From Clostridiales bacterium (lineage in GTDB: Bacteria; Bacillota; Clostridia; Lachnospirales; Lachnospiraceae), in the NCBI GenBank assembly GCA_012512855.1, contig JAAZDK010000244.1:1-34560 (forward strand): a stretch of DNA of 34,560 nucleotides, given 5' to 3'. Below the pieces are notes generated by a model. The model did no database searches, had not been told where the DNA came from, and saw only the letters and a list, made by a program, of their open reading frames with translations. Shown in pieces: positions 15,788 to 29,864 of the stretch (the stretch's first letter is position 1; every line of letters starts with the position of its first letter). Both the position numbers and the translations under genes were made by a program.

Positions 15788-15840
15788 AGCAACAGATGCA
15801 TAACCAACATATGCACGACATATTCCCCAATACACATAAG

Positions 15841-15877
15841 AAGGCTGTCACAGAACGATCGGAATAGTGACAGCCTT
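15841..15877. terminator. Strong two-way hairpin terminator
   Basis: AAGGCTGTCAC (15841-15851) pairs perfectly with GTGACAGCCTT (15867-15877) across a 15-base loop. On the minus strand it lies 8 bases past the response-regulator stop; on the plus strand it is followed by a T-rich stretch and would end the candidate small RNA. Confidence 0.8.
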
Positions 15878-15885
15878 CTTTGTCT

Positions 15886-16509
15886 CTATATTTCACTGCC
15901 AAAAATTTTTCTGGTATACAGGACAGCTTCAACCCTGTTATTAAGGTTAAGCTTGCTTAGAATATTGCTGATATGCTTTTTTGTAGTCCCTTCCGAAATA
16001 AATAAAGCATTGCTGATTTGTGCATTGGTCATTCCCCTACTCAAATGCACCAGTATTTCCTTTTCCCTGTCGGTCAGGCCCAAAAGCTCCTTTGGCATAA
16101 AGCCGTTCATGGACTGCTGCACAATCTGTGGGGAATAATACTTGCCTCCCCTGCTGACAACCTGCAGGGCATACACTATATCCTCGATAAAGGCATCCTT
16201 GATAATATAGGCATCCACATTTAATTCCATGGCTTTTTTATAATCAAAGACATTCACCGACGATGTCAGAATAACTCTCTTTATTTCAGGATAAGAATCC
16301 TTTACCGCAAGTACCAGCTCAAAACCATTCTCCTTTCCCAGGTTGATGTCTATTATGATAATATCTATCTGCTGCCTTTTCAAAGCAGTCATCGCAGCAG
16401 CAATATTGCTGGCTTCATATATTTCATGCTCTTTATTCACTGACAGAATATCGATAATACCTCTCCTCACCAAAGGATGATCATCCACCACTAATATACT
16501 GCTAGCCAT
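15886..16509 (-). CDS. NarL/FixJ-family response regulator
   Basis: A 207-residue two-domain regulator. The receiver domain has the acidic pair Asp9-Asp10, phosphorylation site Asp54 in IIIDINLG, the Thr/Ser switch region VILTSS and a conserved Lys in AYIIKDAF. The C-terminal LuxR-type helix-turn-helix is LTDREKEILVHLSRGMTNAQ followed by ISNALFISEGTTKKHISNI. ATG start with AAGGGGAACG. It is downstream of its histidine kinase, 51 bases away, and closes the minus-strand cassette before a strong terminator. The nearby fibre/matrix genes are plausible targets, but no binding site can be named. Confidence 0.93.
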   Translation of the reverse strand: MASSILVVDDHPLVRRGIIDILSVNKEHEIYEASNIAAAMTALKRQQIDIIIIDINLGKENGFELVLAVKDSYPEIKRVILTSSVNVFDYKKAMELNVDAYIIKDAFIEDIVYALQVVSRGGKYYSPQIVQQSMNGFMPKELLGLTDREKEILVHLSRGMTNAQISNALFISEGTTKKHISNILSKLNLNNRVEAVLYTRKIFGSEI

Positions 16510-16560
16510 TTATGCGTTCCCCTTTCATTATTCTTCATTTATATCAAGTATGACTAAGAG

Positions 16561-18318
16561 TTAGACAGCCGGCTTGCAGGGTATTTCCATGAAGATTCTG
16601 GTGTTTTGGTCGTTGCCTGATCTTATAGTGATCTGACCGTTCATCATCTCAATTATCCGGTGAATATTATTAAGTCCCAGCCCTTGCTCCTTTTTTTGCC
16701 GGACAGCCTCATAATCAAATCCGGCTCCATCATCGGAAATTTGAATTTTTAGCATATCTGTTTCTATCATAATCTGAACGTCTATATGGCTTGCCCTGCC
16801 ATGCCGGATTGCATTGTTCATTGCCTCACATATAACCCGGTACAATCCGCGTTTAAGGTTTAAGCCTATCATATTGGTATCTCCCAAAAAGCTTATATCA
16901 ATTGATACATCATGCATTTTTTCCAGCTCCTTCGCATAATCGTCCAGCTTCTGCCGCAGGGGGTCCTTGCCCTTCTTATCCCACGCTAAACCATAAATGG
17001 TTTCCCGAAGCTCCTTCATGGCCATATCAATTGCCCTTTTAATCTCCAGCAGATTCCGGTTGAGATTTTGATAATCCTCAGTTCTGCTCAGGACATACAG
17101 CTTGCAGGAGATAGCAAACAATCTTTGAAGGACAATGTCATGTATCTCACCTGCAATACGATTCTGTTCCTCACTAATCAAAAGCTGCTCCTCGATTTCA
17201 TTAAACTCCAGCTGTTTTAATGCAATGCCTGCTATTTTCATAAAAAGGGAAAATATATCATTGCTTTGGATTATGCCATCCTCCCTGGAAAAATTCATAC
17301 CATCGGCATCCCCGAAAATCGGCCTCTTTTCACCTGCGGTCGATATCTCCTCCTTCCTGCCAAGGGAAACAAAGGCTCCACAGGGACTGTCCTCATACAT
17401 TATATATTTAATAGTCATGTAATAATCCTCATATCGGCCCTCAAGCTGCCTGGATTGCTGATGATCCTTTTCGATCATTTCCATAGCCTTAGCATAGACT
17501 TTACCGGCCTCATCGGAGGACAAGCCGTAGCTGATGAAGCCACCATAGGCATCTATCGGAGTCAAGCGGATAAGAAGCAGCTGCTTTATGCCGCTTAAAT
17601 ATGAAAAATGCTCCACCAGCTTCATCATAATATTCTCATTTTTGTGGTTGTTGAAAATATTTATGGTTTCATATACCTCGATACTGTATTTTAAGGTCTC
17701 TTCCACCTTGGCATTGGCTGCCTCCAGCTGTCTGTTCAAGGCCGACAGCTTCCTGCCCTTTTCCTCAATCTTACCGGCATAACGAATCAGCTGCAATATA
17801 ACGAAAACAATAATAATACAGCTGATGGCTGTGTTAAGCTGCAGCCTTTCCACCTCATAATTATGTATTGTCCCTTGAAAATAAATGCTTGAGGCAGCTG
17901 CTATCATAAAATAGGCCGCAGAATACAATACTGCCAGAAGGTAGGATAGCTTGACAGCGGTGATAAAGACGGTGCTGATGAAATACCAGATAAAGGGACT
18001 GGCAAATCCGCCTGATATCATAATAAATATCCCGTTTTCAACGGCCTCAACGATGCTTAATATCAGGGTGTTACGCCTGTCATCCTTGTTTTCGAGATAA
18101 AGATAGCCCATAGTGCTGTAGACTATAACCAGCATACATATGATGCCGATTTTCATTCCGATATTGCTCTGAGGTGCTGTGATATAATACAATAGCAGAC
18201 ATACCAAAAAAGATACATAACGATATATTATTAAAATTTTCAGAATGCTAAAAGGTTTTAGAGCTTTAGTGTATAATTTCTTCAATAAATCCTTTATTTT
18301 CCTCATATTATCCTTCAT
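16561..18318 (-). CDS. Membrane sensor histidine kinase, NarL/DegS-like (HisKA_3)
   Basis: A 585-residue kinase. About six N-terminal membrane helices cover residues 25-180, with little outside sequence, so it may sense membrane or lipid-phase signals. A coiled coil follows (about 183-215), then a GAF-like cytoplasmic domain (about 215-370). The HisKA_3 helix carries the phospho-acceptor His393 in IAGEIHDIVLQRL. The HATPase domain shows NNAIRHG, DDGAGF and GLGLNNIHRI. Start is uncertain: the listed ATG lacks a clear ribosome-binding site, while the ATG four codons later (18306) has AAGGA. It is followed by its response regulator and preceded by a short membrane-peptide ORF and the DUF5305-like gene. 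Confidence 0.93.
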   Translation of the reverse strand: MKDNMRKIKDLLKKLYTKALKPFSILKILIIYRYVSFLVCLLLYYITAPQSNIGMKIGIICMLVIVYSTMGYLYLENKDDRRNTLILSIVEAVENGIFIMISGGFASPFIWYFISTVFITAVKLSYLLAVLYSAAYFMIAAASSIYFQGTIHNYEVERLQLNTAISCIIIVFVILQLIRYAGKIEEKGRKLSALNRQLEAANAKVEETLKYSIEVYETINIFNNHKNENIMMKLVEHFSYLSGIKQLLLIRLTPIDAYGGFISYGLSSDEAGKVYAKAMEMIEKDHQQSRQLEGRYEDYYMTIKYIMYEDSPCGAFVSLGRKEEISTAGEKRPIFGDADGMNFSREDGIIQSNDIFSLFMKIAGIALKQLEFNEIEEQLLISEEQNRIAGEIHDIVLQRLFAISCKLYVLSRTEDYQNLNRNLLEIKRAIDMAMKELRETIYGLAWDKKGKDPLRQKLDDYAKELEKMHDVSIDISFLGDTNMIGLNLKRGLYRVICEAMNNAIRHGRASHIDVQIMIETDMLKIQISDDGAGFDYEAVRQKKEQGLGLNNIHRIIEMMNGQITIRSGNDQNTRIFMEIPCKPAV

Positions 18319-18342: not shown

Positions 18343-18450
18343 TTATTTACATTTATTTACATACCTTATTCTATTATATTTTGTAAATTTTTTCAAACTC
18401 ATTAGTGCGACAAATATCAGCATGATCAACAAGAGAAGGAAATAATCCAT
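18343..18450 (-). CDS. Small membrane protein (35 residues), unrecognised
   Basis: A short reading frame between the DUF5305-like gene and the histidine kinase. The ATG at 18450 is preceded by GAGGGGTCGAAGG. The predicted peptide starts MDYFLLLLIMLIFVALMSL, one membrane helix, and ends in a basic, tyrosine-rich tail (KKFTKYNRIRYVNKCK). A GTG at 18468 could extend it by six residues. It ends 25 bases before the kinase start and begins just after the terminator-like hairpin. Single-span peptides with basic tails often modulate membrane kinases or transporters, but this role is inference. It may also be chance; a promoter-like TATAAT lies within it. Confidence 0.45.
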   Translation of the reverse strand: MDYFLLLLIMLIFVALMSLKKFTKYNRIRYVNKCK

Positions 18451-18490
18451 CAGCCTTCGACCCCTCACGAGCAATTTTAAATTAACAAGG

Positions 18491-18524
18491 AAAGAGGATA
18501 TCTTCGCCCGATATCCCCTCCTTT
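18491..18524 (-). terminator. Hairpin terminator after the DUF5305-like gene
   Basis: On the minus strand, AAAGGAGGGGATATC pairs with GATATCCTCTTT across the loop GGGCGAA, with a two- to three-base bulge, and is followed by a T-rich stretch (CCTTGTTAATTT). It lies about 22 bases after the gene's stop. Confidence 0.6.
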
Positions 18525-18546
18525 ACTTATATAGCTTTATGTTCTG

Positions 18547-19614
18547 CTACCTGTAATTTTGCATGATTGAGTTTAGTACACAGTATTCATATAGCTCTTC
18601 CCCATTCTGAACAAAAAATTTGAAGTCCTTGACCAGCTCCTTGTCATCCCTTTCATAAAGGATAGGCTTTTGAATTTCATCCGAAACCTTTACCAAATCC
18701 TTTATACTGTATAATTCGTATATCCTGTTGAAGGATTTTGCAGTATTGCTCTGCAGGGTAACCATCCTGCTGCCATATTCCCTTTGTATCTTTTTTATAG
18801 AAAGCATTACAATATCATTCAAATCATAATCCCTGGTAAAAATCAGAATATATAATAGCGCCAGCAAAGCAACTCCGGATACAGATATGTAGATTGCCAG
18901 CCTTGTTTGGTTCAGGGGAACAGGCTCCACCTGCTTTTGGGTGAGCTTGCCGCTTACTGCATCCATTCCATTCTTGCTGAACTTGCATACATTGTAGAAT
19001 ACCGAGCTTATGTCAAAGCTGAAGGACTCCTCCACCTCTCCGTAGGCAGTGCTGGCTTTTACCATACCTTCCATGGAAAAGATAATGTCAAAATCAATGT
19101 TTATTCCCAGCTCCTCCTTGGCCTCATTAACAAAAGTTATATATCTGCCAAGACTGACGTCAAATTCCTCATTCACAGCAAGAGCTCTGTCGCTTACCTC
19201 CAGGCTTTGCTTTTCATTAAGCGGAAAGGACTTTGTCCAATAAATTTCCTTTATATTTTGCTGGATAACAAAGCCGCTGATTTTTACAAAGCACTGATAA
19301 TCTATTCTGATAGGCACCGTATCGCTGCCTGTATATTCAAAATCATATTTGAGCCTGATATAATCTATCAGCTTTCTGGGATAATACAATCCTTCCTCCA
19401 TGTAATCCTCATCATAGATGATGTTATCCTTCAAAAAAACCTTATAGGCAATATTTTTGCTTATTTTGTAGTCATATTTGACTATATCCTTTTCTGTCAT
19501 TTCCTTTTTGCAGGCAGTAATAAAAACCATGGCTAAAGCTGCAATTAAGGTGCAGCTCAAAACAACTGTGCAGGCTATCTTCTTGCCCCTTCCCAGCTTC
19601 ATATGTACCTTCAT
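18547..19614 (-). CDS. DUF5305-like two-span membrane protein of the SipW/TasA-type cassette
   Basis: A 355-residue protein with an N-terminal membrane helix at about 12-35. A large outside domain (about 40-240) follows, with the pattern YDYKISKNIAYKVFLKDN ... LIDYIRLKYDFEYTG ... WTKSFPL seen in DUF5305 proteins. A second helix lies at about 242-262 and a cytoplasmic tail of about 90 residues ends it. The ATG at 19614 has GGAG at 8-base spacing; a TTG one codon earlier also exists. Families of this kind are found beside SipW-type signal peptidases, so a role in assembling or anchoring the exported fibre protein is inferred. An Ala-Cys (ITACKK) at the helix end could suggest a lipobox, but the helix is better read as an uncleaved anchor. 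Confidence 0.8.
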   Translation of the reverse strand: MKVHMKLGRGKKIACTVVLSCTLIAALAMVFITACKKEMTEKDIVKYDYKISKNIAYKVFLKDNIIYDEDYMEEGLYYPRKLIDYIRLKYDFEYTGSDTVPIRIDYQCFVKISGFVIQQNIKEIYWTKSFPLNEKQSLEVSDRALAVNEEFDVSLGRYITFVNEAKEELGINIDFDIIFSMEGMVKASTAYGEVEESFSFDISSVFYNVCKFSKNGMDAVSGKLTQKQVEPVPLNQTRLAIYISVSGVALLALLYILIFTRDYDLNDIVMLSIKKIQREYGSRMVTLQSNTAKSFNRIYELYSIKDLVKVSDEIQKPILYERDDKELVKDFKFFVQNGEELYEYCVLNSIMQNYR

Positions 19615-19729
19615 CAATCCCGCTCCTTTATGTATATTATTATAAAATGTAACCTCTGACCTGAGAGCTTTTTCAATTGGATATTCATATCATAAGAAAT
19701 TTATTTTATTAGAAATATAAATAATCCAA

Positions 19730-19756
19730 CCTCACCACCAGCCTGTGATGGTGAGG
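19730..19756 (-). terminator. Hairpin after the TasA-like gene
   Basis: CCTCACCA (19730-19737) pairs perfectly with TGGTGAGG (19749-19756), 11-base loop. It lies 34 bases past the TasA-like stop and is followed on the minus strand by TTGGATTATTTATATTT. The T-run is imperfect, so it may be a partial terminator or mRNA stabiliser that keeps the DUF5305-like gene at lower expression. Confidence 0.55.
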
Positions 19757-19789
19757 CAGGATTCATATATATAAACTGCTTGCTCTTGC

Positions 19790-20560
19790 TTACTCGGCTA
19801 CTGCTGCCTTAGCATTGTACTGATCCCACAGGAGCTCAAGCTTAAGGGTTCCGTTCTTGTTCTCTGTGTTATCATCGGATACACCGCTAACATCGCCATT
19901 CAGCCATGTGCCGCTGGTGTACTCGCCTTCAGCATCGGGATCCATAGCGATATCAAGCTCTATCACCATTTCAGAATATGAATTGTCGGTATCAAGGAAC
20001 AAAGTATTGGAAGCAATATTAATATCTTCTATTTTGCTCAGAGCAACGAAGCCATTATTCTTGATTTTGAAAGAAACTTCGCCATCAGGAATGTCTGCTA
20101 CTTCTGTCTCATAGGTGACGCCTAATATCGGATGAATAACATAAACTCTGTCCTTTATTGTTGCTGTAAGCCTGATTCCAATAACATTCTGCAAATCACT
20201 GATGCCTGTCTTATCCAAGCGGATAGCACTTAATTTTGCAGCAACATCTCCCAGGTTCTCTGCCTTGAATTTGAACTTGTAGCCATAGCCCGGGAACAGC
20301 TTTTTAATTTGCAATGTTACAGCGCTGCTGGGGGTTTTTACCTTGTCAACATTTGCTTCTGCATGGTTATACTTATCAAGCAGATCAACAGGGTACAAAT
20401 CACTAATGGCACCTTCAAGATCACTCTCAGTCAATTTGACTTCAAATTTACCGGTGTTTACGCTGCCGGTGATTGAGAACATGTCGGTCCAGTAAGCGTA
20501 ACCGGTTCCCATCAGCAGTAATGCGCATGCTATAACACATGCAATAAACCTTTTTTTCAT
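19790..20560 (-). CDS. TasA/camelysin-like exported protein with SipW-type signal peptide
   Basis: A 256-residue secreted protein. The basic N-terminus and hydrophobic stretch end in TGYAYWTDMFSITGSVNTG, the hallmark of SipW-dependent signal peptides; cleavage is expected around the Ala-Tyr before WTD. The mature part is a beta-rich domain with LFPGYGYKFKFKAENLG, the 'PG...N.G' pattern typical of TasA/CalY/camelysin proteins. It ends with a final strand LKLELLWDQYNA. TasA forms biofilm fibres and CalY is surface-exposed (family knowledge); fibre formation here is inferred. ATG start with AAGGAG. It has its own extended -10 promoter and a hairpin after it, which may allow high expression relative to the peptidase gene upstream. 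Confidence 0.85.
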   Translation of the reverse strand: MKKRFIACVIACALLLMGTGYAYWTDMFSITGSVNTGKFEVKLTESDLEGAISDLYPVDLLDKYNHAEANVDKVKTPSSAVTLQIKKLFPGYGYKFKFKAENLGDVAAKLSAIRLDKTGISDLQNVIGIRLTATIKDRVYVIHPILGVTYETEVADIPDGEVSFKIKNNGFVALSKIEDINIASNTLFLDTDNSYSEMVIELDIAMDPDAEGEYTSGTWLNGDVSGVSDDNTENKNGTLKLELLWDQYNAKAAVAE

Positions 20561-20607
20561 CTTTCTCTACTCCTTTTCTTGATATGTTTTTTGCACTTGC
20601 AAGGGCT

Positions 20608-20616
20608 ATTATAGCA
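20608..20616 (-). promoter_or_regulatory. Extended -10 promoter of the TasA-like gene
   Basis: On the minus strand, TGC-TATAAT (extended -10) lies 48 bases before the TasA-like start codon. The -35 hexamer 17 bases upstream is weak (ATGTAA), which is usual for extended -10 promoters. The predicted transcript starts near 20600, with a leader of about 40 bases containing AAGGAG. Confidence 0.5.
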
Positions 20617-20707
20617 TCGCTCCCAATTATTTACATGGCCCTAAAATGGAAAATTTGATTTAACAAAGGTTTAATCTATATACCACTAAAGGAGTATTAG
20701 CTTAAGG

Positions 20708-21895
20708 CTAAAATTCTATATCATCATAGCTGATATTCTTTCTCTCCTTAATCAAGAGGGTGGGATAGCCCAGCTTTGGTATGACCCTTACCAGGCTTCC
20801 CTTAATATCCTCGGGATAGACCAGTCGCAAATCATGGGTGGAATTATTGTCACCCTTGGTTCTGAAGGCCATTCTGCCGTCATCATCCTGTTCAATACCG
20901 ATAATACGGTGTGTAATCAGAATATTGTCCTGCGCAAACTGTATTACATCTCCGACCTCAAGCTTATTTATTTCATCAGGATCTCTAATTTGCCTGATGA
21001 GAATAATATCTCCCGGATAAATCAAAGGCTCCATGCTTCCGGTGGCAACAACGGATGGATATATAGGAAACACACCTACAACAAACCAAATAAGCAAAAC
21101 AGAAAAGGTTAATACAAATGTCGTTTCTATCTGCTCCTTTATACTTTTTACCTTTTCCCTGTGCCGCTTGCGGTTATATCTGGTGGTTATATAGGATATC
21201 ATTATAACTGGTGCAATAGTACCCAATATCCCTTCGCAAAACCAATTCAAATCAGGCAGGATAGGTATTAGCCATTCAAATGCGAATGTCGTCATAATAT
21301 ATATGACTGGTGTGGAGACAGACCCGTAAAGGGCCAGAAATGATAAATGAATGCTTTCACACAGATTTGGCAGCACTTCTCTGGCAAAAAGCTGTGTCAA
21401 ATCTATTAAATCCATAGAGGTCTTAATCAGATTCCAGTTAAATTCACAGGCTGCCAGAATAAATGACAGGCTATAGAAGACGGGCTCATTATTCCTTCTG
21501 CTGCAATATGTATTAATCAGATGATATCTCACCAGCTGGCCTGCGACAAGCTGTGGGACAACATCAGCTATATTATATAAAATTCCAGTGGGGGTAAAGG
21601 CATAAGGGCTCCTGCCCAGATTAAAAATCAGGATTCCGATTAAATAGCGTAAGGCATAATAGGCTATTGTCATAATAAGAACCTCAAAATTTATCTTGTC
21701 CAGATAGCCTATTCTGCCCTTTGAATTTATTTTGGGAGCCAATCTGATATAGGCGAAAATACCTGGAAGCCACAATATAAGCATAAAGCGGCTATCCTTA
21801 ATCAAACCTGCTTCGCAAACTGCTGAAAGCAGAAGATAAACAAGCATCATAATAATGCCTGTAAGCTTATATTTTTTATCAACTATATATCTCAT
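20708..21895 (-). CDS. SipW/ER-type signal peptidase I with large N-terminal multi-span membrane domain
   Basis: A 395-residue membrane protease. The last 140 residues are an S26B-type signal peptidase: a membrane helix at about 258-278, box B TGSMEP with nucleophile Ser287, box D ITHRIIGIE with His329 in place of the bacterial lysine (the ER/archaeal/SipW arrangement), and box E TKGDNNSTHD with Asp349. Residues 1-240 form about six or seven further membrane helices with no resemblance I can name beyond a faint CPBP-like look; normal SipW is near 190 residues and lacks this. It probably processes the three neighbouring WTD-type precursors. The ATG start has GGGAGAAGG at long spacing. It is 31 bases after the upstream gene, so co-transcribed. 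Confidence 0.9.
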   Translation of the reverse strand: MRYIVDKKYKLTGIIMMLVYLLLSAVCEAGLIKDSRFMLILWLPGIFAYIRLAPKINSKGRIGYLDKINFEVLIMTIAYYALRYLIGILIFNLGRSPYAFTPTGILYNIADVVPQLVAGQLVRYHLINTYCSRRNNEPVFYSLSFILAACEFNWNLIKTSMDLIDLTQLFAREVLPNLCESIHLSFLALYGSVSTPVIYIMTTFAFEWLIPILPDLNWFCEGILGTIAPVIMISYITTRYNRKRHREKVKSIKEQIETTFVLTFSVLLIWFVVGVFPIYPSVVATGSMEPLIYPGDIILIRQIRDPDEINKLEVGDVIQFAQDNILITHRIIGIEQDDDGRMAFRTKGDNNSTHDLRLVYPEDIKGSLVRVIPKLGYPTLLIKERKNISYDDIEF

Positions 21896-21926
21896 ATATC
21901 TTAGGTACCTTCTCCCAAATCAACTT

Positions 21927-22682
21927 TTATTCCTGAAGGTTTTCTTCAGCTAATGCCTTGTCAGCCTGCAAATTGCTGCCCTGCAGGTCATCTGCCGTTA
22001 CCTGTCCTGTATCAAAAGAGCTTCCCCTATCAGCTTCAGTGTCCAAACCCTTTTGGGCAGAGCCTTCGTCCATTTCTGAAGCGGTATCCTGCGGTTGATG
22101 AAGGAATGCGTCGCTTTCACCAGAGACTGATTTAAGCAAAGAGTCATTATCAGCTCCTGCTTCATCCGGGGAAGCTGAAGCTTTTCCTGCCTCTGCAGGA
22201 TCAGCTACAGGTTCAATTGCAGAATTGGCAGATGTAACAGCTGTTTCCCAGTCTGTTGCTATCCCATCGGATGGTGGATTGTCAGGAAATAGCTCACCTG
22301 CTGGTTCATCATCAGAAGAAATTTCTCCTGCAGTTCCACCCGGACCGCCTTCCATTGTATCCTGCTTATCATTATCTATATCATCAGCCGGCTTATCATC
22401 TGTCTTATGAGCTGGAGCATTGTTCTCCAAAACAGTATCATTTATGCCGTTATCAGGATATGACTCATCTCCCCTGCTTTCATCATCAGCCTGCTGCTCT
22501 TCCTTTGCTGCTTCTACTTCCTCAACTACTGCATCAATGCGAATCAGTTCAATGCTATGCGTATATCTGGCATTGCCGCTTATGGTTACAGAATCTGTCC
22601 AATAGCTGTAGCCTGCATCCAGTGCGCAGTAGGCAATAAATACCACAATAACTGTAATAAGTAAATATCTTGATCTTTTCAA
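21927..22682 (-). CDS. Exported acidic low-complexity protein with SipW-type signal peptide
   Basis: A 251-residue protein. The N-terminus MKRSRYLL leads a hydrophobic helix ending DAGYSYWTDSVTISGNARY, a SipW-type signal motif. After about 15 residues of beta-like sequence (HSIELIRIDAVV), the remaining 190 residues are rich in Asp, Glu, Ala, Ser and Gly with almost no hydrophobic pattern, so they are probably disordered and strongly negative. There is no recognised domain and no catalytic motif. The TTG start has AAAGGG 7 bases upstream. It sits between a second exported protein (36 bases) and the signal peptidase (31 bases), clearly in one operon. Calcium or cation binding, or a spacer/coat role on a fibre, are inferences. 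Confidence 0.8.
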   Translation of the reverse strand: MKRSRYLLITVIVVFIAYCALDAGYSYWTDSVTISGNARYTHSIELIRIDAVVEEVEAAKEEQQADDESRGDESYPDNGINDTVLENNAPAHKTDDKPADDIDNDKQDTMEGGPGGTAGEISSDDEPAGELFPDNPPSDGIATDWETAVTSANSAIEPVADPAEAGKASASPDEAGADNDSLLKSVSGESDAFLHQPQDTASEMDEGSAQKGLDTEADRGSSFDTGQVTADDLQGSNLQADKALAEENLQE

Positions 22683-22718
22683 TGTGATACCCTTTCTATT
22701 TAAATTATTAAAATAGCT

Positions 22719-23690
22719 TCACTCAGTCTCGGCATTAAACTGGTCAAGCCTCAGCGGTATAATAAAGCCATATTCAGCTGAAATGGATATAGTTTCCCTG
22801 CTAATCAGCAGCTTTCTTTTTATATTTTTGCCCCTATCCTTTTTACCATTTACATCCTTATTTTCATAATCTGCATCCTGCATATCCTCTGAGCTTTCCT
22901 CACCTTTCAGTGGGTCCATTTTCTCCATTGATGCCTCATTATCAGATGAAGCAGCTGGCAAATCCACCCCTTCCCCTGCAGCTTCCTCCCTGTGTGAAAA
23001 TGCTTCCTCCGACTCTGTTATGCTTAAGTCCGGCTCAGAAGCAACAGTATCAAAAGCATACGCCTGATCCTGAATGTCCAGTTCCGGATCCGGAGCACTT
23101 TCATCATTTTTTGCAGTCACAGCTTCACTGTAATCATAGGTGATGGAATCTATCGGCTTAGCAGGTAAATAAACAGGTGTAAAATCTATCATCCCACCTG
23201 TACCGTTAAAGCTGTGATAGGCTTTGAATACTCCCAGATTTTCAGGAAGCAGATTAAGATAATCACTGGCATTATAGTCGCCTCCGGACAAATCCCATCT
23301 GACCGTGTCCCTCTTCAGTTCGATACTTATAATGCCCAGCTCCTCTTCTTTTGCCTTTAACGGTACATTTCCGTTTTCACCATTCTTGAGCGCATAATAT
23401 ATTCTTAATTTATCGCTACCCGTCATATTCATAATCGGCCCGGCGTCCAGAATATCAATCCTGAGATATTTCCCTCTGTCAACTGTTATGGATGCAGGTA
23501 TTGGGATTGTTGATTCATTTCTGATCAAAACAAGAGAATTGCCCGACTCCTGAAAATCATAATCCAAAAAGCCGGTTGTTATACTTGCCAACATTTTGCC
23601 TATATCTGTCCACCCTGCATAGGATACCCCCAGCAGACCGATTATAATAATGCATAGGTATATAATCCTTACCGAAGAATACTTTCTCAT
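22719..23690 (-). CDS. Exported beta-rich protein with acidic insert and SipW-type signal peptide
   Basis: A 323-residue secreted protein, first gene of the cassette. The signal region ends VSYAGWTDIGKMLASITTG, the same WTD motif as its two neighbours. Residues about 38-190 look like a beta-sandwich domain (FLDYDFQESGNSLVLIRNES). Residues about 195-275 are an acidic low-complexity stretch much like the neighbouring gene product. A basic patch (KKDRGKNIKRK) and a final strand IIPLRLDQFNAETE follow. The DQFNA end matches the DQYNA end of the TasA-like protein. ATG start with GAGG 9 bases upstream; a promoter lies about 45 bases before it. Likely a minor or anchoring fibre component, by context. 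Confidence 0.8.
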   Translation of the reverse strand: MRKYSSVRIIYLCIIIIGLLGVSYAGWTDIGKMLASITTGFLDYDFQESGNSLVLIRNESTIPIPASITVDRGKYLRIDILDAGPIMNMTGSDKLRIYYALKNGENGNVPLKAKEEELGIISIELKRDTVRWDLSGGDYNASDYLNLLPENLGVFKAYHSFNGTGGMIDFTPVYLPAKPIDSITYDYSEAVTAKNDESAPDPELDIQDQAYAFDTVASEPDLSITESEEAFSHREEAAGEGVDLPAASSDNEASMEKMDPLKGEESSEDMQDADYENKDVNGKKDRGKNIKRKLLISRETISISAEYGFIIPLRLDQFNAETE

Positions 23691-23735
23691 ATATATAACC
23701 TCAACAAGATTTAATTATTAACTCGGGCATTTTTC

Positions 23736-23764
23736 ACTATACATGTTTTCCCAATATATGTTAA
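23736..23764 (-). promoter_or_regulatory. Predicted sigma-A promoter of the SipW cassette
   Basis: TTAACA (23759-23764), exactly 17 bases, then TATAGT (23736-23741), read on the minus strand. The predicted transcription start is near 23729, giving a leader of about 40 bases before the first cassette gene. Confidence 0.6.
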
Positions 23765-24036: not shown

Positions 24037-25104
24037 TTACTCTCCTACCATACCATCTCCGTCCCGATCATCCATATATGGATATAACCAGTGATCCGAA
24101 TAAATCGGCATCCTGTAACCGGCAGCCTTGGCCTCGGCAATGGTGACCCTGCCGTCACCATTTTTGTCCACCTTCGATAAATCATGTTCGTCTGATAACT
24201 CCTGTTCCTCTTTCTTCTTTATATCATTGGCATCCTGACCGGTTTTGTCCTCTAATATGATCCTGACATTTATTTTATCAGGGTCCACGTTGTCAAATTC
24301 GTCAACTATATCTTCACCATTTAAAATATACTCATAATGGTAATGTGACGGTATTTGAGTATTTGCATCAGGATATGTAATAACGGCGAAAAATTTCTCA
24401 CAGCCGCCGGCATCCCTGATTACCTTCTCCATATATGCCTGATTACCATGTCTGTTTAATACACTGTTCTGTGGAGTGATATTATATGCATTTGATACTC
24501 CACCCAGGGAATCGGCTATTACATGCCCCTCATCCATATCCTCCAGCTCGGTACCCGGTACCTTGGCCTCATCATTATAATATCTCCCATTTGAAGTTAC
24601 CGGCTCATTTTCCTCATCCTGTGGGATTAGCCTGTCTGCATATACAAAGACAAGCTGTCCATATTCATTGGTAAACGCCCAGTATTCCCTCTCACCATAA
24701 CCGATATCGACTGCCACAAGCGCCTTTCTTTCTCCTGATAAATCTCCTCCGTCTACTTCTATAATACTATAAGTTACATTATTAAATTCTATACAGCCGT
24801 TGCTTCTGTTATCTATTGCTTCCTTGATAAGCTCCCTGAGCTTTGAGTACTCATCCCGTTCTGTCGGGCATTTTACTGTATCAGATCTGTTTTCGAATTG
24901 ATTTTTTGCAGTCCGATCTGTATCGGACAGGCCTTTTTTTTCCTGCACTTTGTCAGCTTCCTGTCCATCCTTACCGGATAAAGAGATGCTGTATACCTCA
25001 CCGGTATTTATTTGATTACTGACGCCACAAGCCTTTAAAAGGGCAAGTGATAATATTAAAGTTAGGGCAAATAAGGTTCTAGCAGGTATTTTCAGTCTAA
25101 TCAT
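24037..25104 (-). CDS. Secreted DNA/RNA non-specific endonuclease lipoprotein with calcium-binding C-terminus
   Basis: A 355-residue lipoprotein. The signal peptide ends in the lipobox LLKAC with acylated Cys26. A charged linker reaches about residue 80. The nuclease core (about 110-285) has DEGHVIADSLGG (191-202), where His194 would be the general base, and NITPQNSVLNRHGNQAYME with metal-binding Asn; this is the DRGH-type fold of NucA/EndA-like enzymes, here with Glu for Arg. The tail has an EF-hand loop DKNGDGRVTIAE (313-324) and an Excalibur-like end DRDGDGMVGE, with Gly where Excalibur usually has Cys. ATG start with AGAGGTGA. It likely degrades extracellular nucleic acid at the cell surface, for nutrient use or matrix turnover. 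Confidence 0.87.
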   Translation of the reverse strand: MIRLKIPARTLFALTLILSLALLKACGVSNQINTGEVYSISLSGKDGQEADKVQEKKGLSDTDRTAKNQFENRSDTVKCPTERDEYSKLRELIKEAIDNRSNGCIEFNNVTYSIIEVDGGDLSGERKALVAVDIGYGEREYWAFTNEYGQLVFVYADRLIPQDEENEPVTSNGRYYNDEAKVPGTELEDMDEGHVIADSLGGVSNAYNITPQNSVLNRHGNQAYMEKVIRDAGGCEKFFAVITYPDANTQIPSHYHYEYILNGEDIVDEFDNVDPDKINVRIILEDKTGQDANDIKKKEEQELSDEHDLSKVDKNGDGRVTIAEAKAAGYRMPIYSDHWLYPYMDDRDGDGMVGE

Positions 25105-25383: not shown

Positions 25384-26922
25384 TCAACCATAGAAATTCT
25401 GTGTGTAGTATGGATATCCATACTTATCGATACCTATACCGACACCTAAATAATCGAGTCCCGGATCTAATATATTGCTTCGGTGTCCTTCAGACATAAA
25501 CCAGCCATGACATGCATCAAATGATGTTCTGTAATATGCGGCAATATTTTCTGCTCCTATTGTATAATAAATACCTTCACGCTTCATTCTTTCGAATGGT
25601 GATGCTCCTGATAAGGAATAATGATCGAAGTAATTATTTGTAGCCATATCCTGGCTATGCTTTCTGGCACTGGCGGCTGCTTTATCAGACCATAAAAATG
25701 CCTGCAGGCCATTTTGCACCCTGTATGAATTTGTGATATCAAAAATTTCTTTTTCCATATTGGCAATGACTTCATCAGTACAAGGGTTCAGCTCAACCTG
25801 GCTGTCAATCACAAAGACTGCATCTACATTTTTCTTCCCCAGAGTATCAATATATACGGTATATTTATACCTATAATTCCAATCCGATTTTTGCTCTGTT
25901 TTACTTTCCTTGCTATAGCCAAAAAATTCAAAATCAACCGAATTGGTGTACCATCCCACAAGTCTATTGTCCTTCATATATAACAGCAGCAGCCTGTTAT
26001 AGTCATCGGCATAAATATATGTTTCATCACCATAGTTTGATTTTGCAATTCGACTTGGCTGTCCAAGCCTGGCAACTATTTCTTCCCTGCCTTCTCCCAA
26101 CACAAAAGTAGCATTGCGGACAGTCAGGACCGGCCGCGCCAGGATTAAAACCGTAAGAGCATCGCTTATTCCGTTATTTACGGTAACAGTGATATCTGCA
26201 AAACCAGGATTAACTCCCGTTATCACACCATTTTCATCAACCCTGGCTATGCTTTCATCACTGCTTTTATAGCTGATAGTTTTTACCTTTTCTGAAGAAG
26301 GATAGGTCTTTATTGTTATTTGGCTGTTTTCTCCCGGATACAAACAATCATTTTCCAGATATGCGCTTATTCTGTAAACACCCTTAACATCCACCTGACA
26401 ATTATATTTGCTGTTTCCAACCTTTGCAGTTATAGTTGCGGTTCCAATATCATGGGCGGTAACCTTACCCTTGCTGTCCACGGAAGCAACTGAGGAATGA
26501 TTGGAGTACCATTCAACCTTCCCTTTGGTCCCCTCCAGCTTCAAAAGCAGAGTTTCTCCCAGATCCAGGGTGACAGATTTATAATTTAAGACCGCATCCG
26601 TTACAGTAAGCTTGCATATATAAATCTTATTGCCTACATATGCATAGATATCTGTTTTTCCAGCCTTTAGAGCAGTAACCTTTCCCTTTGAACTGACTGA
26701 TGCAATATTTGAGTTGGCCACCATCCATTTTACTTTCTTTGAGCTGCCCTTGACCTTAAGAGTATAGCTATTGCCTACTACCAGGCTCAGCTTACTTTTA
26801 TTTAAGGATACCGTCGCTGCCTCTGCAACAGCTGTGCCATAATCAAATACCTGATTAATCACAGGAGCAAGAAGCAAAGCCAAAATCAGATATAATAAAA
26901 ACAGACCTTTTTTGCTTTTCAC
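25384..26922 (-). CDS. Secreted Ig-like (BIG2) repeat protein with CAP domain
   Basis: A 512-residue secreted protein. The signal peptide covers about residues 1-35 (LFLLYLILALLLAPVINQVF, cut near VAEAA). Three bacterial Ig-like BIG2-type domains follow (about 36-110, 112-182, 184-265), each with the pattern 'L..G....L......V.W...NSSVASV...GKVTAL..G.a.I.A.VG'. A CAP-associated N-domain (about 270-385, VLGEGREEIVARLGQPSRI) precedes the C-terminal CAP/SCP domain (about 390-512), which has ARKHSQDMA, YFDHYSLSGASPFERM, GAENIA and SEGHRSNILDPGLDYLGVGIG. Wall-binding adhesion is suggested by the Ig domains; the CAP domain's activity is unknown. The start is GTG with AAAGGA somewhat upstream. It has its own promoter and terminator. 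Confidence 0.92.
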   Translation of the reverse strand: MKSKKGLFLLYLILALLLAPVINQVFDYGTAVAEAATVSLNKSKLSLVVGNSYTLKVKGSSKKVKWMVANSNIASVSSKGKVTALKAGKTDIYAYVGNKIYICKLTVTDAVLNYKSVTLDLGETLLLKLEGTKGKVEWYSNHSSVASVDSKGKVTAHDIGTATITAKVGNSKYNCQVDVKGVYRISAYLENDCLYPGENSQITIKTYPSSEKVKTISYKSSDESIARVDENGVITGVNPGFADITVTVNNGISDALTVLILARPVLTVRNATFVLGEGREEIVARLGQPSRIAKSNYGDETYIYADDYNRLLLLYMKDNRLVGWYTNSVDFEFFGYSKESKTEQKSDWNYRYKYTVYIDTLGKKNVDAVFVIDSQVELNPCTDEVIANMEKEIFDITNSYRVQNGLQAFLWSDKAAASARKHSQDMATNNYFDHYSLSGASPFERMKREGIYYTIGAENIAAYYRTSFDACHGWFMSEGHRSNILDPGLDYLGVGIGIDKYGYPYYTQNFYG

Positions 26923-27656: not shown

Positions 27657-27749
27657 TTAGATGGAACATTATTCAGGCTCTTGCTATAAATGCATTGATG
27701 CAGGATGGCCCACCTTAGAACGTTATATAATAATAGGAGTGAACAGAAT

Positions 27750-29864
27750 ATGTACGGCAAAAAAATATCTAAAATATTATCTTTTATTCTAATCACAGCT
27801 GTTGTTTTTTCATTACAGTATACCGCACCGGTATTTGCAGCAGCTAAAAATTCTCCTCCAGTTATTTCAGAAGGGAAATCTCTTGCGTTATCCACCACAA
27901 AGAGTAAATCCATATCCTTTACTATCAGCGCTAAGGATTCCAATGGAGATAAAATATCCTTTGCCATATCCAAAGCAGCAAAAAACGGAACGGTAAAGCT
28001 GGCTAATCCCACGTCAAAAGGAAAGGGCTCTGCCAGGGTCTATACAGTTAAGGTTACATACAATCCCAAATCATCTTTTACCGGTTCGGATTCCTTTTCT
28101 TTAATCGCCAAGGACAGCAAGGGAGCAAAGTCAACCGCTATAACTGTAAATGTTACCGTTAAGAAGGCTGATAAGACCTCAGACAGCACGGACAAACTCA
28201 AGGCTGTAGAGCTTATTGCACCGAAGTATGAAAGCATAGGTTTTTTTTCAGAGGATCTGGCACGAGTCTATAAAGATGGTAAATTCGGCTACATCGATCT
28301 TAACGGGAAGCTTGTTATTCCCTTGAAATATACATCAGCCAATGATTTTAAGGACGGCTATGCACAGGTTTCTATCGATGGGAAATTTGGCTATATTGAC
28401 AAAAAGGGCAAGGTGGTAATCCCGCTTAAGTATAACTGGCTAACGGATATAACTGAGGGATTAGCATCATTTGTAACTGATGGGAAATATGGTCTTGTAG
28501 ATATAACCGGAAAGGAAATAGCATCGGCAAAATATGATAAAATATATGGATTCTCAAATGGCAGAGCAATGTTTATACTTAACGGTAAATACGGTTTTAT
28601 TGACAAAAACGGCAAAGAAATAGTTCCTGCCAAATATGATACTATTTCTGAATTTATCGGTGATATCGCTGTTGTTCAATATGATAAAAAATACGGCATT
28701 GTGGACAAATCAGGCAAGGAAATTATACCTGCCGAATATTATACCTATAAAAAATTATCGGATGCAATCATAGCTCTTCAGAAGGAAGGTCCATATGACA
28801 GATACCAATTGGTTGACACAAAGGGGAATCTGCTTTCGGAATACAGCTATATCAATGTTGAGGATTTTTCTGAAGGCCTTGCTTTGGTTAGCAGGGAGGA
28901 CGGTTACGGCTTTATAGACAAGACAGGGAAGGAAGTTATACCGGCACAGTTTAAATCTGCTCTTTCCTTTTCAGATGGTCTCGCAGCAGTAAGCGATAAC
29001 GATCATGGTTTTGGCTATATCGATAAAAGCGGGCGTCTTGTAATTCCATACAAATACGAGATTGCAGGCTCCTTTTCAGAAGATCTGGCTATGGTCCGCT
29101 TGGACGGCAAATATAAAATCATAGACAAAGCTGGTAATGAAATAGCAGACATCAATAAACCGGCCGGAACCCTGATATTGGGTGTATTTAAGGATGGAGT
29201 TGCATGGTGTACAATAACCAATATAGCCGGGGGTTCATATCATGTTTTAATCGATAAAAATGGTAATGAACTGACCAGCTCCAAATATACTGAGGTTAAT
29301 GATTTTAATAACGGTCTTGCCAAGGTTTATAACGGAAATTACGGCATGGTTGACAAGAACGGGAAGGAAATTATTACATCCAGATACGCCAATATAATTC
29401 AATATGACAATGGCTGGATTGTAGCAAATGGAGCCTTCAGCTTCAACCATCCTACCTGGTATGCGGTTTTCAACAAAAAAGGTGAGTTGATTATAGAGGG
29501 AAATAATCTTAGCTTCTCTCCGCTGTCTGAAAATTTATTGGCTGTATCTTCTGTTTCAAAAGATAACGATATTTTTAACAGATCCATACGCCTGATTGAT
29601 ATAAATGGAAAAACCGTTGTAAAATCGGGGAAATATCTCGATGTTAGTGAACTAAACGACGGTTATGCCTTAGTTCGTGCTTATACCGGCAAAAAAGGCA
29701 GCAAGGACTATTCATTGCTGAGATATGGTGTAATAGACAAGAATGGTAAAGAGCTGCTGGCTCCCTCACTCAATTACAATACAATGTATTATGCAGGCAA
29801 GAATAATATTTACATAACCGTAATTAACGGAAAATATGGATTAATTAAATTAACCGGCAAATAG
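27750..29864 (+). CDS. Secreted WG-repeat protein with N-terminal Ig/cadherin-like domain
   Basis: A 704-residue secreted protein and the only clear plus-strand gene. The ATG at 27750 is chosen for its AGGAGTG site; an upstream ATG at 27705 has none. The signal peptide is about 1-34 (ending APVFAAA). Residues about 36-140 form a cadherin/Ig-like domain (PPVISEGKSLALS ... GSDSFSLIAKDSKG). About 15 WG-type repeats of 35-55 residues follow, with the core 'GKYGFIDKNGKEIVPAKYD', most having YG or FG rather than WG. No wall-anchor motif is seen, so it is secreted freely or held by other means. WG repeats likely form a beta-propeller or solenoid for binding. It is transcribed against the surrounding genes. 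Confidence 0.9.
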   Translation: MYGKKISKILSFILITAVVFSLQYTAPVFAAAKNSPPVISEGKSLALSTTKSKSISFTISAKDSNGDKISFAISKAAKNGTVKLANPTSKGKGSARVYTVKVTYNPKSSFTGSDSFSLIAKDSKGAKSTAITVNVTVKKADKTSDSTDKLKAVELIAPKYESIGFFSEDLARVYKDGKFGYIDLNGKLVIPLKYTSANDFKDGYAQVSIDGKFGYIDKKGKVVIPLKYNWLTDITEGLASFVTDGKYGLVDITGKEIASAKYDKIYGFSNGRAMFILNGKYGFIDKNGKEIVPAKYDTISEFIGDIAVVQYDKKYGIVDKSGKEIIPAEYYTYKKLSDAIIALQKEGPYDRYQLVDTKGNLLSEYSYINVEDFSEGLALVSREDGYGFIDKTGKEVIPAQFKSALSFSDGLAAVSDNDHGFGYIDKSGRLVIPYKYEIAGSFSEDLAMVRLDGKYKIIDKAGNEIADINKPAGTLILGVFKDGVAWCTITNIAGGSYHVLIDKNGNELTSSKYTEVNDFNNGLAKVYNGNYGMVDKNGKEIITSRYANIIQYDNGWIVANGAFSFNHPTWYAVFNKKGELIIEGNNLSFSPLSENLLAVSSVSKDNDIFNRSIRLIDINGKTVVKSGKYLDVSELNDGYALVRAYTGKKGSKDYSLLRYGVIDKNGKELLAPSLNYNTMYYAGKNNIYITVINGKYGLIKLTGK

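Follow-up and report, generated by a model that had tools for sequence, protein, structure and literature searches.

We analysed a stretch of 34,560 nucleotides from a Clostridiales bacterium of the Lachnospiraceae (assembly GCA_012512855.1, contig JAAZDK010000244.1), hereafter called the window, and found that it carries, on the minus strand, seven genes forming a conserved module. In order of transcription, this cassette encodes two exported proteins (W1 and W2), a long signal peptidase (SipW-long), a TasA-like protein, a DUF5305 protein, and the kinase and regulator of a NarL-type two-component system. The cassette is, in our judgement, quite probably a self-contained system making surface fibres of the TasA/AbpX type. 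Gene content, conservation, catalytic residues and the family kinship of the major subunit were directly observed; the assembly of fibres we infer. An earlier, sequence-only reading had placed the cassette's elements on one strand, and all of them were recovered at their place. It had also noted a NarL-type kinase and regulator downstream, and these are present at 15886-18318, outside the segment 18343-23764 that it quoted.

Conservation of the gene set was assessed in a scan of named genomes for which the peptidase alignment was the only query and the best 80 of 294 relatives (L110-L189) were kept, so that loosely related loci are missing from the counts. A peptidase gene was called in 79 of the 80 loci, and the 52 flanked by 5 kb or more on each side formed the counted set, to the exclusion of L130 (no called peptidase gene) and of 27 loci with less than 5 kb on one side. 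These 52 loci span the class, with several congeners among them. The neighbourhood search that the sequence-only reading had proposed, for SipW-type peptidases longer than 350 residues that neighbour DUF5305 and proteins with WTD signal ends, gave a clear answer: DUF5305 was detected in all 52 loci, at least two W-signal proteins in 50, a kinase in 40, a regulator in 43, both of the latter in 39 and the complete set in 37. The peptidase and DUF5305 genes lie on the same strand, with no opposing gene between them, in 51 of the 52 loci. By comparison, among 24 control loci with a short SipW, all from the window's family and 5 of them with less than 5 kb on one side, none had DUF5305, a kinase or a regulator, and two had at least two W-signal proteins; a further control, L198, was excluded because no peptidase was called. 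In 13 loci of the class fetched by matches to the BsaA family, most of which are weak (of 15 genomes with a match, 4 are above the cut-off), SipW was called in 10, DUF5305 in none, and a kinase with a regulator in one.

Of 200 family genomes, 6 had a DUF5305 match above the cut-off, five with a full-length peptidase match and one with a peptidase cut by a contig end; in the class, 22 of 341 genomes had one, the window's own included. Sixteen of the 24 DUF5305 loci of the class contain the long peptidase, 4 a divergent peptidase, and 2 are cut by contig ends; one of the two remaining loci has a kinase, a regulator and a W protein but no peptidase, and the other no partner at all. A 25th fetched locus, L107, had no called DUF5305 and was left out. 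Five of the 16 loci with the long peptidase (L097-L099, L101, L103) lack both kinase and regulator. The class and named samples share at least 11 loci. The HMMs derive from the window and the family cassettes, and what they score cannot be taken as independent evidence; for the named loci, the peptidase was the sole criterion of choice.

SipW-long (20708..21895, 395 aa) is a polytopic ER-type signal peptidase with a Ser-His-Asp triad. It matches TIGR02228 with 76.1 bits, above the curated cut-off of 51.85, and S287, H329 and D349, the triad named by the sequence-only reading, fall in columns that do not vary across 12 aligned peptidases, the window's included. Over 76 sequences, the active-site motifs TGSM[EKQ]P, HR[IVL] and GD[NA]N occur in 74, 75 and 74, respectively. 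The cut-off of the Bacillus SipW equivalog NF046067 was not reached (69 against 190 bits), and the SipW-long profile matches SEC11C/SEC11A of the signal peptidase complex with an E-value of about 1e-18. Its N-terminal half, of about 240 residues with several spans by hydropathy, is conserved and polytopic in the 12 sequences; a Pfam search returned no clear family for it. In the family, the peptidase was matched in 66 of 200 genomes, over more than 300 residues in only 5, the window's own included, the other matches among those listed covering mainly the C-terminal catalytic part.

The three exported proteins, W1 (22719..23690, 323 aa), W2 (21927..22682, 251 aa, TTG start) and the TasA-like protein (19790..20560, 256 aa), each have one hydrophobic segment that stops just before a WTD motif. 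The sequence-only reading had proposed this motif as a shared signal end. It does occur in all three window proteins (AGWTD, SYWTD and AYWTD, respectively) but is not strict in relatives: the W1 relatives of L110 and L130 have the signal ends AAHTS and AAYTN, and five DUF5305 loci (L097-L099, L101, L103) have YAAF/YAAL-type ends in its place. That two of the three proteins are acidic was confirmed by their composition, with 57 D/E against 32 K/R in one and 57 D/E against 15 K/R in the other.

The TasA-like protein reached the cut-off of none of the library models listed (TIGR04088, 15.9 against 19 bits; Camelysin PF12389, 14.6 against 22.5; BsaA TIGR04090, 13.9 against 60), and the Bacillus TasA equivalog NF046066 gave no row at an E-value of 1. 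Over 40 aligned sequences and at an E-value of 0.01, TIGR04090 matches 9, PF12389 12 and NF046066 one. When compared with solved structures, the TasA-like profile matched AbpX (9sj2, 9rhp), an archaeal bundling protein which is probably ABPx of Pyrodictium abyssi, with an E-value of 2.3e-12, and TasA with 0.044 and 0.047. The TasA fibre was its best fold match, with middling fold scores. The TasA relationship put forward from the sequence alone is thus upheld by profile and, moderately, by fold, and placed by these two routes only, the protein appears to belong to the TasA/AbpX fibre family. AbpX, although archaeal, is also the best sequence-profile match of the W1 set: a profile of 17 W1 proteins, the window's included, reached it with an E-value of 9.5e-7. 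A phmmer search with W1, which has no match among the NCBIfam and Pfam library models, retrieved 25 proteins, TasA-like ones among them, from 24 of the 80 loci, and hhalign aligned the W1 and TasA-like sets at 98.4% over 51 columns covering the signal end and the donor strand only. W1 may be a minor fibre subunit. W2, an acidic protein, consists of a short strand-like segment after the signal followed by an acidic low-complexity tail (median acid fraction of 0.249 in the W2 class, assigned by position); no NCBIfam model matched it and its sole Pfam row, with an E-value of 0.16, is a chance match. We regard it as a putative strand donor of the TapA kind.

An AbpX-like N-terminal strand and the TG boundary that ends it are among the best-conserved parts. 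With classes assigned by position, the TG boundary was found in 63 of 64 TasA-like, 47 of 54 W1 and 7 of 56 W2 proteins. The deposited AbpX chain 9sj2 starts one residue before the W of a WSETL...TG segment. Because this WTD-like stretch opens the AbpX chain, the WTD motif probably indicates the cleavage site as well as the donor strand used in polymerisation.

The DUF5305 protein (18547..19617, 356 aa), suggested as DUF5305-like from the sequence alone, matches PF17231 over the full profile (1-217) with 100.7 bits for a cut-off of 29. It probably starts at the ATG at 19614, one codon inside the listed TTG. Its predicted structure (pLDDT 94.4) comprises a membrane span at residues 10-36, an outer beta domain at about 40-232, a second span at 237-260 and an inner alpha/beta domain at 266-355, both spans being found also by hydropathy. 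Conservation is alike on the two sides of the membrane (0.44 outside, 0.43 inside). No clear match of the model was obtained among solved structures, and DUF5305 is named nowhere in the open PMC papers searched. A second arrangement was observed in six loci (L100, L104, L105, L106, L266, L267), in which DUF5305, a kinase and a regulator are accompanied by a small exported protein and by an S26-like peptidase of divergent sequence. Two of them, L266 and L267, come from the same genus as the window; the S26-like peptidase of L266 scores 21.2 bits, just below the Pfam cut-off, and the small exported protein of L267 matches DUF1102 with 24.6 bits for a cut-off of 22.2.

The kinase (16561..18318, 585 aa) is a NarX-type sensor histidine kinase with a membrane-spanning N-terminus, HisKA_3 and HATPase_c, and the regulator (15886..16509, 207 aa) contains Response_reg and GerE, the make-up of a NarL-type two-component system. 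In each of the 40 kinase-bearing loci of the counted set, the kinase gene is upstream of the peptidase gene, and in 38 the regulator gene comes immediately after that of the kinase, so that the position of the pair at the downstream end of the window cassette is unusual. Nevertheless, the window pair belongs to the cassette. Within the 200 family genomes, the best non-self matches of the window kinase are the cassette kinases of G072 and G088 (117.6 and 116.5 bits; the next match has 69.7). When 71 kinases were placed in a tree, 9 of the weaker family matches grouped in a single branch (100/100); the window kinase falls on the opposite side with all the cassette kinases, and its own branch is long. 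Relatives of the regulator were found by phmmer in 61 of the 80 loci. A genome of the same genus (G539) carries all seven genes in the order kinase-regulator-W1-W2-peptidase-TasA-like-DUF5305. Its kinase is 48% identical to the window's over the full length, its peptidase 39%, and the TasA-like, DUF5305 and W1 proteins match with E-values of 3e-29, 7e-53 and 5e-8, respectively; W2 matches (E-value 2e-7) over the first 43 residues only, mostly signal peptide. Given this usual order, the window has the same set with the kinase-regulator pair moved to the end. In a genus sample of 34 genomes, the window's own included and several incomplete, the long peptidase was found in 3 at an E-value of 1e-30, and this patchy spread suggests gain and loss of the cassette within the genus.

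We propose the following mechanism. The kinase and regulator would switch the cassette on, as suggested by their linkage and by the case of Clostridium perfringens. W1, W2 and the TasA-like protein would be exported by the Sec pathway with signal ends carrying Trp at P2', left for SipW-long to cut; here the motif, the pairing of genes and published work on TasA are our guides. By homology with AbpX and TasA, cleavage would free an N-terminal strand, W-[TSN]-D-x8-TG, fitting the groove of the next subunit, and the TasA-like subunit would polymerise by donor-strand exchange. W1 would be a second subunit, while W2, with its strand, acidic tail and no clear acceptor domain, could start or cap the fibre as TapA does. 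DUF5305, always present with the peptidase in the counted loci, may be a membrane partner helping processing or assembly at the cell surface.

Published reports describe the TasA donor strand and strand donation by TapA (PMC9674648, PMC10151520), state that TapA residues 44-57 are sufficient for biofilm, and place a Phe at P2' of TasA and SipW (PMC10269814). The cassette resembles tapA-sipW-tasA of Bacillus subtilis in its dedicated ER-type peptidase, its TasA-family subunit with an N-terminal donor strand and its small accessory partner, and differs from it by the 395-aa polytopic peptidase, DUF5305, the two other W-signal proteins and the linked NarL-type pair, regulation in B. subtilis relying on SinR. 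With sipW-bsaABCRSD of C. perfringens, as far as the accessible part of PMC7395162 describes it, it shares a SipW-type peptidase, a filament-forming exported protein and a linked two-component system, BsaR/BsaS being required there for expression of the sipW operon and for BsaA filaments. Also common to both are a predicted terminator behind the main subunit gene and, in the same portion of that report, bsaA in excess over the downstream genes. The 1.4-kb sipW-bsaA message implies a short SipW, in contrast to the long one of the cassette, and that portion mentions no DUF5305. In Bacillus cereus (sipW-tasA, calY, capP), SipW-processed co-assembling subunits and an assembly-controlling protein are likewise described, and no two-component system or DUF5305 is named for the locus in the available part of the source (PMC13082335).

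It could be argued from these resemblances that the cassette is an ordinary SipW-TasA biofilm operon whose extra genes are incidental. The peptidase class, the TasA-family subunit, the C. perfringens two-component system and one BsaA-matched locus of the 13 (L242), where a kinase of the cassette clade stands beside a short SipW, all agree with this explanation, which we nonetheless find rather unlikely: DUF5305 accompanies the long peptidase in every counted locus and is absent from the 24 short-SipW and 13 BsaA-matched loci, and the conserved polytopic half of the peptidase is left unaligned by most other SipW matches of the family. A smaller chance still, and a slight one, attaches to the W-signal proteins being soluble surface or signalling proteins read by the kinase, with no more than a shared beta-sandwich behind the TasA likeness. 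The linked sensor, the acidic low-complexity W2 and the middling fold scores would fit, but the AbpX profile match, the well-kept strand and TG boundary, and the terminator-like hairpin of the TasA-like gene, as expected of an abundant subunit, argue for a fibre protein. Judged by its carriers, a spore-appendage or spore-coat system is very improbable, even though many of them are clostridial and the name of TasA chain 5of1 is spore coat-associated protein N, for the carriers include Lachnoanaerobaculum, Peptostreptococcus, Oribacterium and Filifactor, genera not known to form spores.

With the fibre-making cassette as the preferred reading, SipW with a TasA-type fibre protein, and a linked two-component system in C. 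perfringens, were already known. What is new, as far as our searches of open PMC papers go, is that the long peptidase, DUF5305, W1, W2, TasA-like protein and NarL-type pair form a conserved set, which occurs throughout Clostridia and in one or more genomes of Bacillaceae, such as that of Halobacillus litoralis (L158), with its kinase, regulator, long peptidase and DUF5305. The sequence-only proposal of a distinct surface-fibre system of Clostridia therefore stands as to the distinct gene set, marked by DUF5305 (52/52 loci against 0/24 controls), but neither as to its confinement to Clostridia nor as to the novelty of a linked sensor. DUF5305 thereby gets a first functional setting, and TasA/AbpX-type fibre proteins of Bacillota a second gene set, richer than the Bacillus operon. 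One segment, the WTD motif, may do two jobs, and the long peptidase with DUF5305 provides a conserved marker by which anaerobes can be screened for candidate surface-fibre loci. Accessory subunits are part of the signal peptidase complex of eukaryotes. By analogy, DUF5305, with one outer beta domain between two spans, might act as such a subunit; tentatively, and with somewhat less than even confidence, we envisage a widespread and previously undescribed class of donor-strand fibre machines of Bacillota in which a composite of SipW-long and DUF5305 would release and hand over three strand-bearing subunits, coupling cleavage to polymerisation at the membrane under a co-inherited sensor.

Several hairpins were predicted along the minus strand. 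The one directly 3' of the TasA-like gene (19729..19757, 12-pair stem, fold z -3.92) is terminator-like, and because of it more of the TasA-like subunit may be produced than of the downstream products. Another, between the DUF5305 and kinase genes (18491..18521, fold z -1.14), is not distinctive and possibly a weak terminator; a long hairpin 3' of the regulator (15838..15880, fold z -3.97) marks the cassette end, and a terminator-like hairpin (23991-23970) closes off the upstream gene. Upstream neighbours on the same strand encode a DNA/RNA non-specific endonuclease with a weak EF-hand (24037-25104) and a protein with Big_2 and CAP (25384-26922). A 719-aa protein with one bacterial Ig domain and nine WG repeats is encoded at 27705-29864.

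Elsewhere, a haloarchaeal SipW-dependent protein (L109:6951-7802) lies beside a plasmid S26 peptidase and matches a collagen-like repeat with 25.7 bits, for a cut-off of 27.2. In 24 of the 80 named loci (e.g. L111, L118, L121), a relative of two exported S-layer homology domain proteins was detected, often directly behind DUF5305; it is possibly a wall anchor, and was not seen in the window cassette. Finally, T2SSE genes (type II/IV secretion ATPase) occur at or near long-peptidase cassettes in L090:13434-14468, L265:7290-8366 and L268:15702-16760, which may point to a connection with type IV pili.

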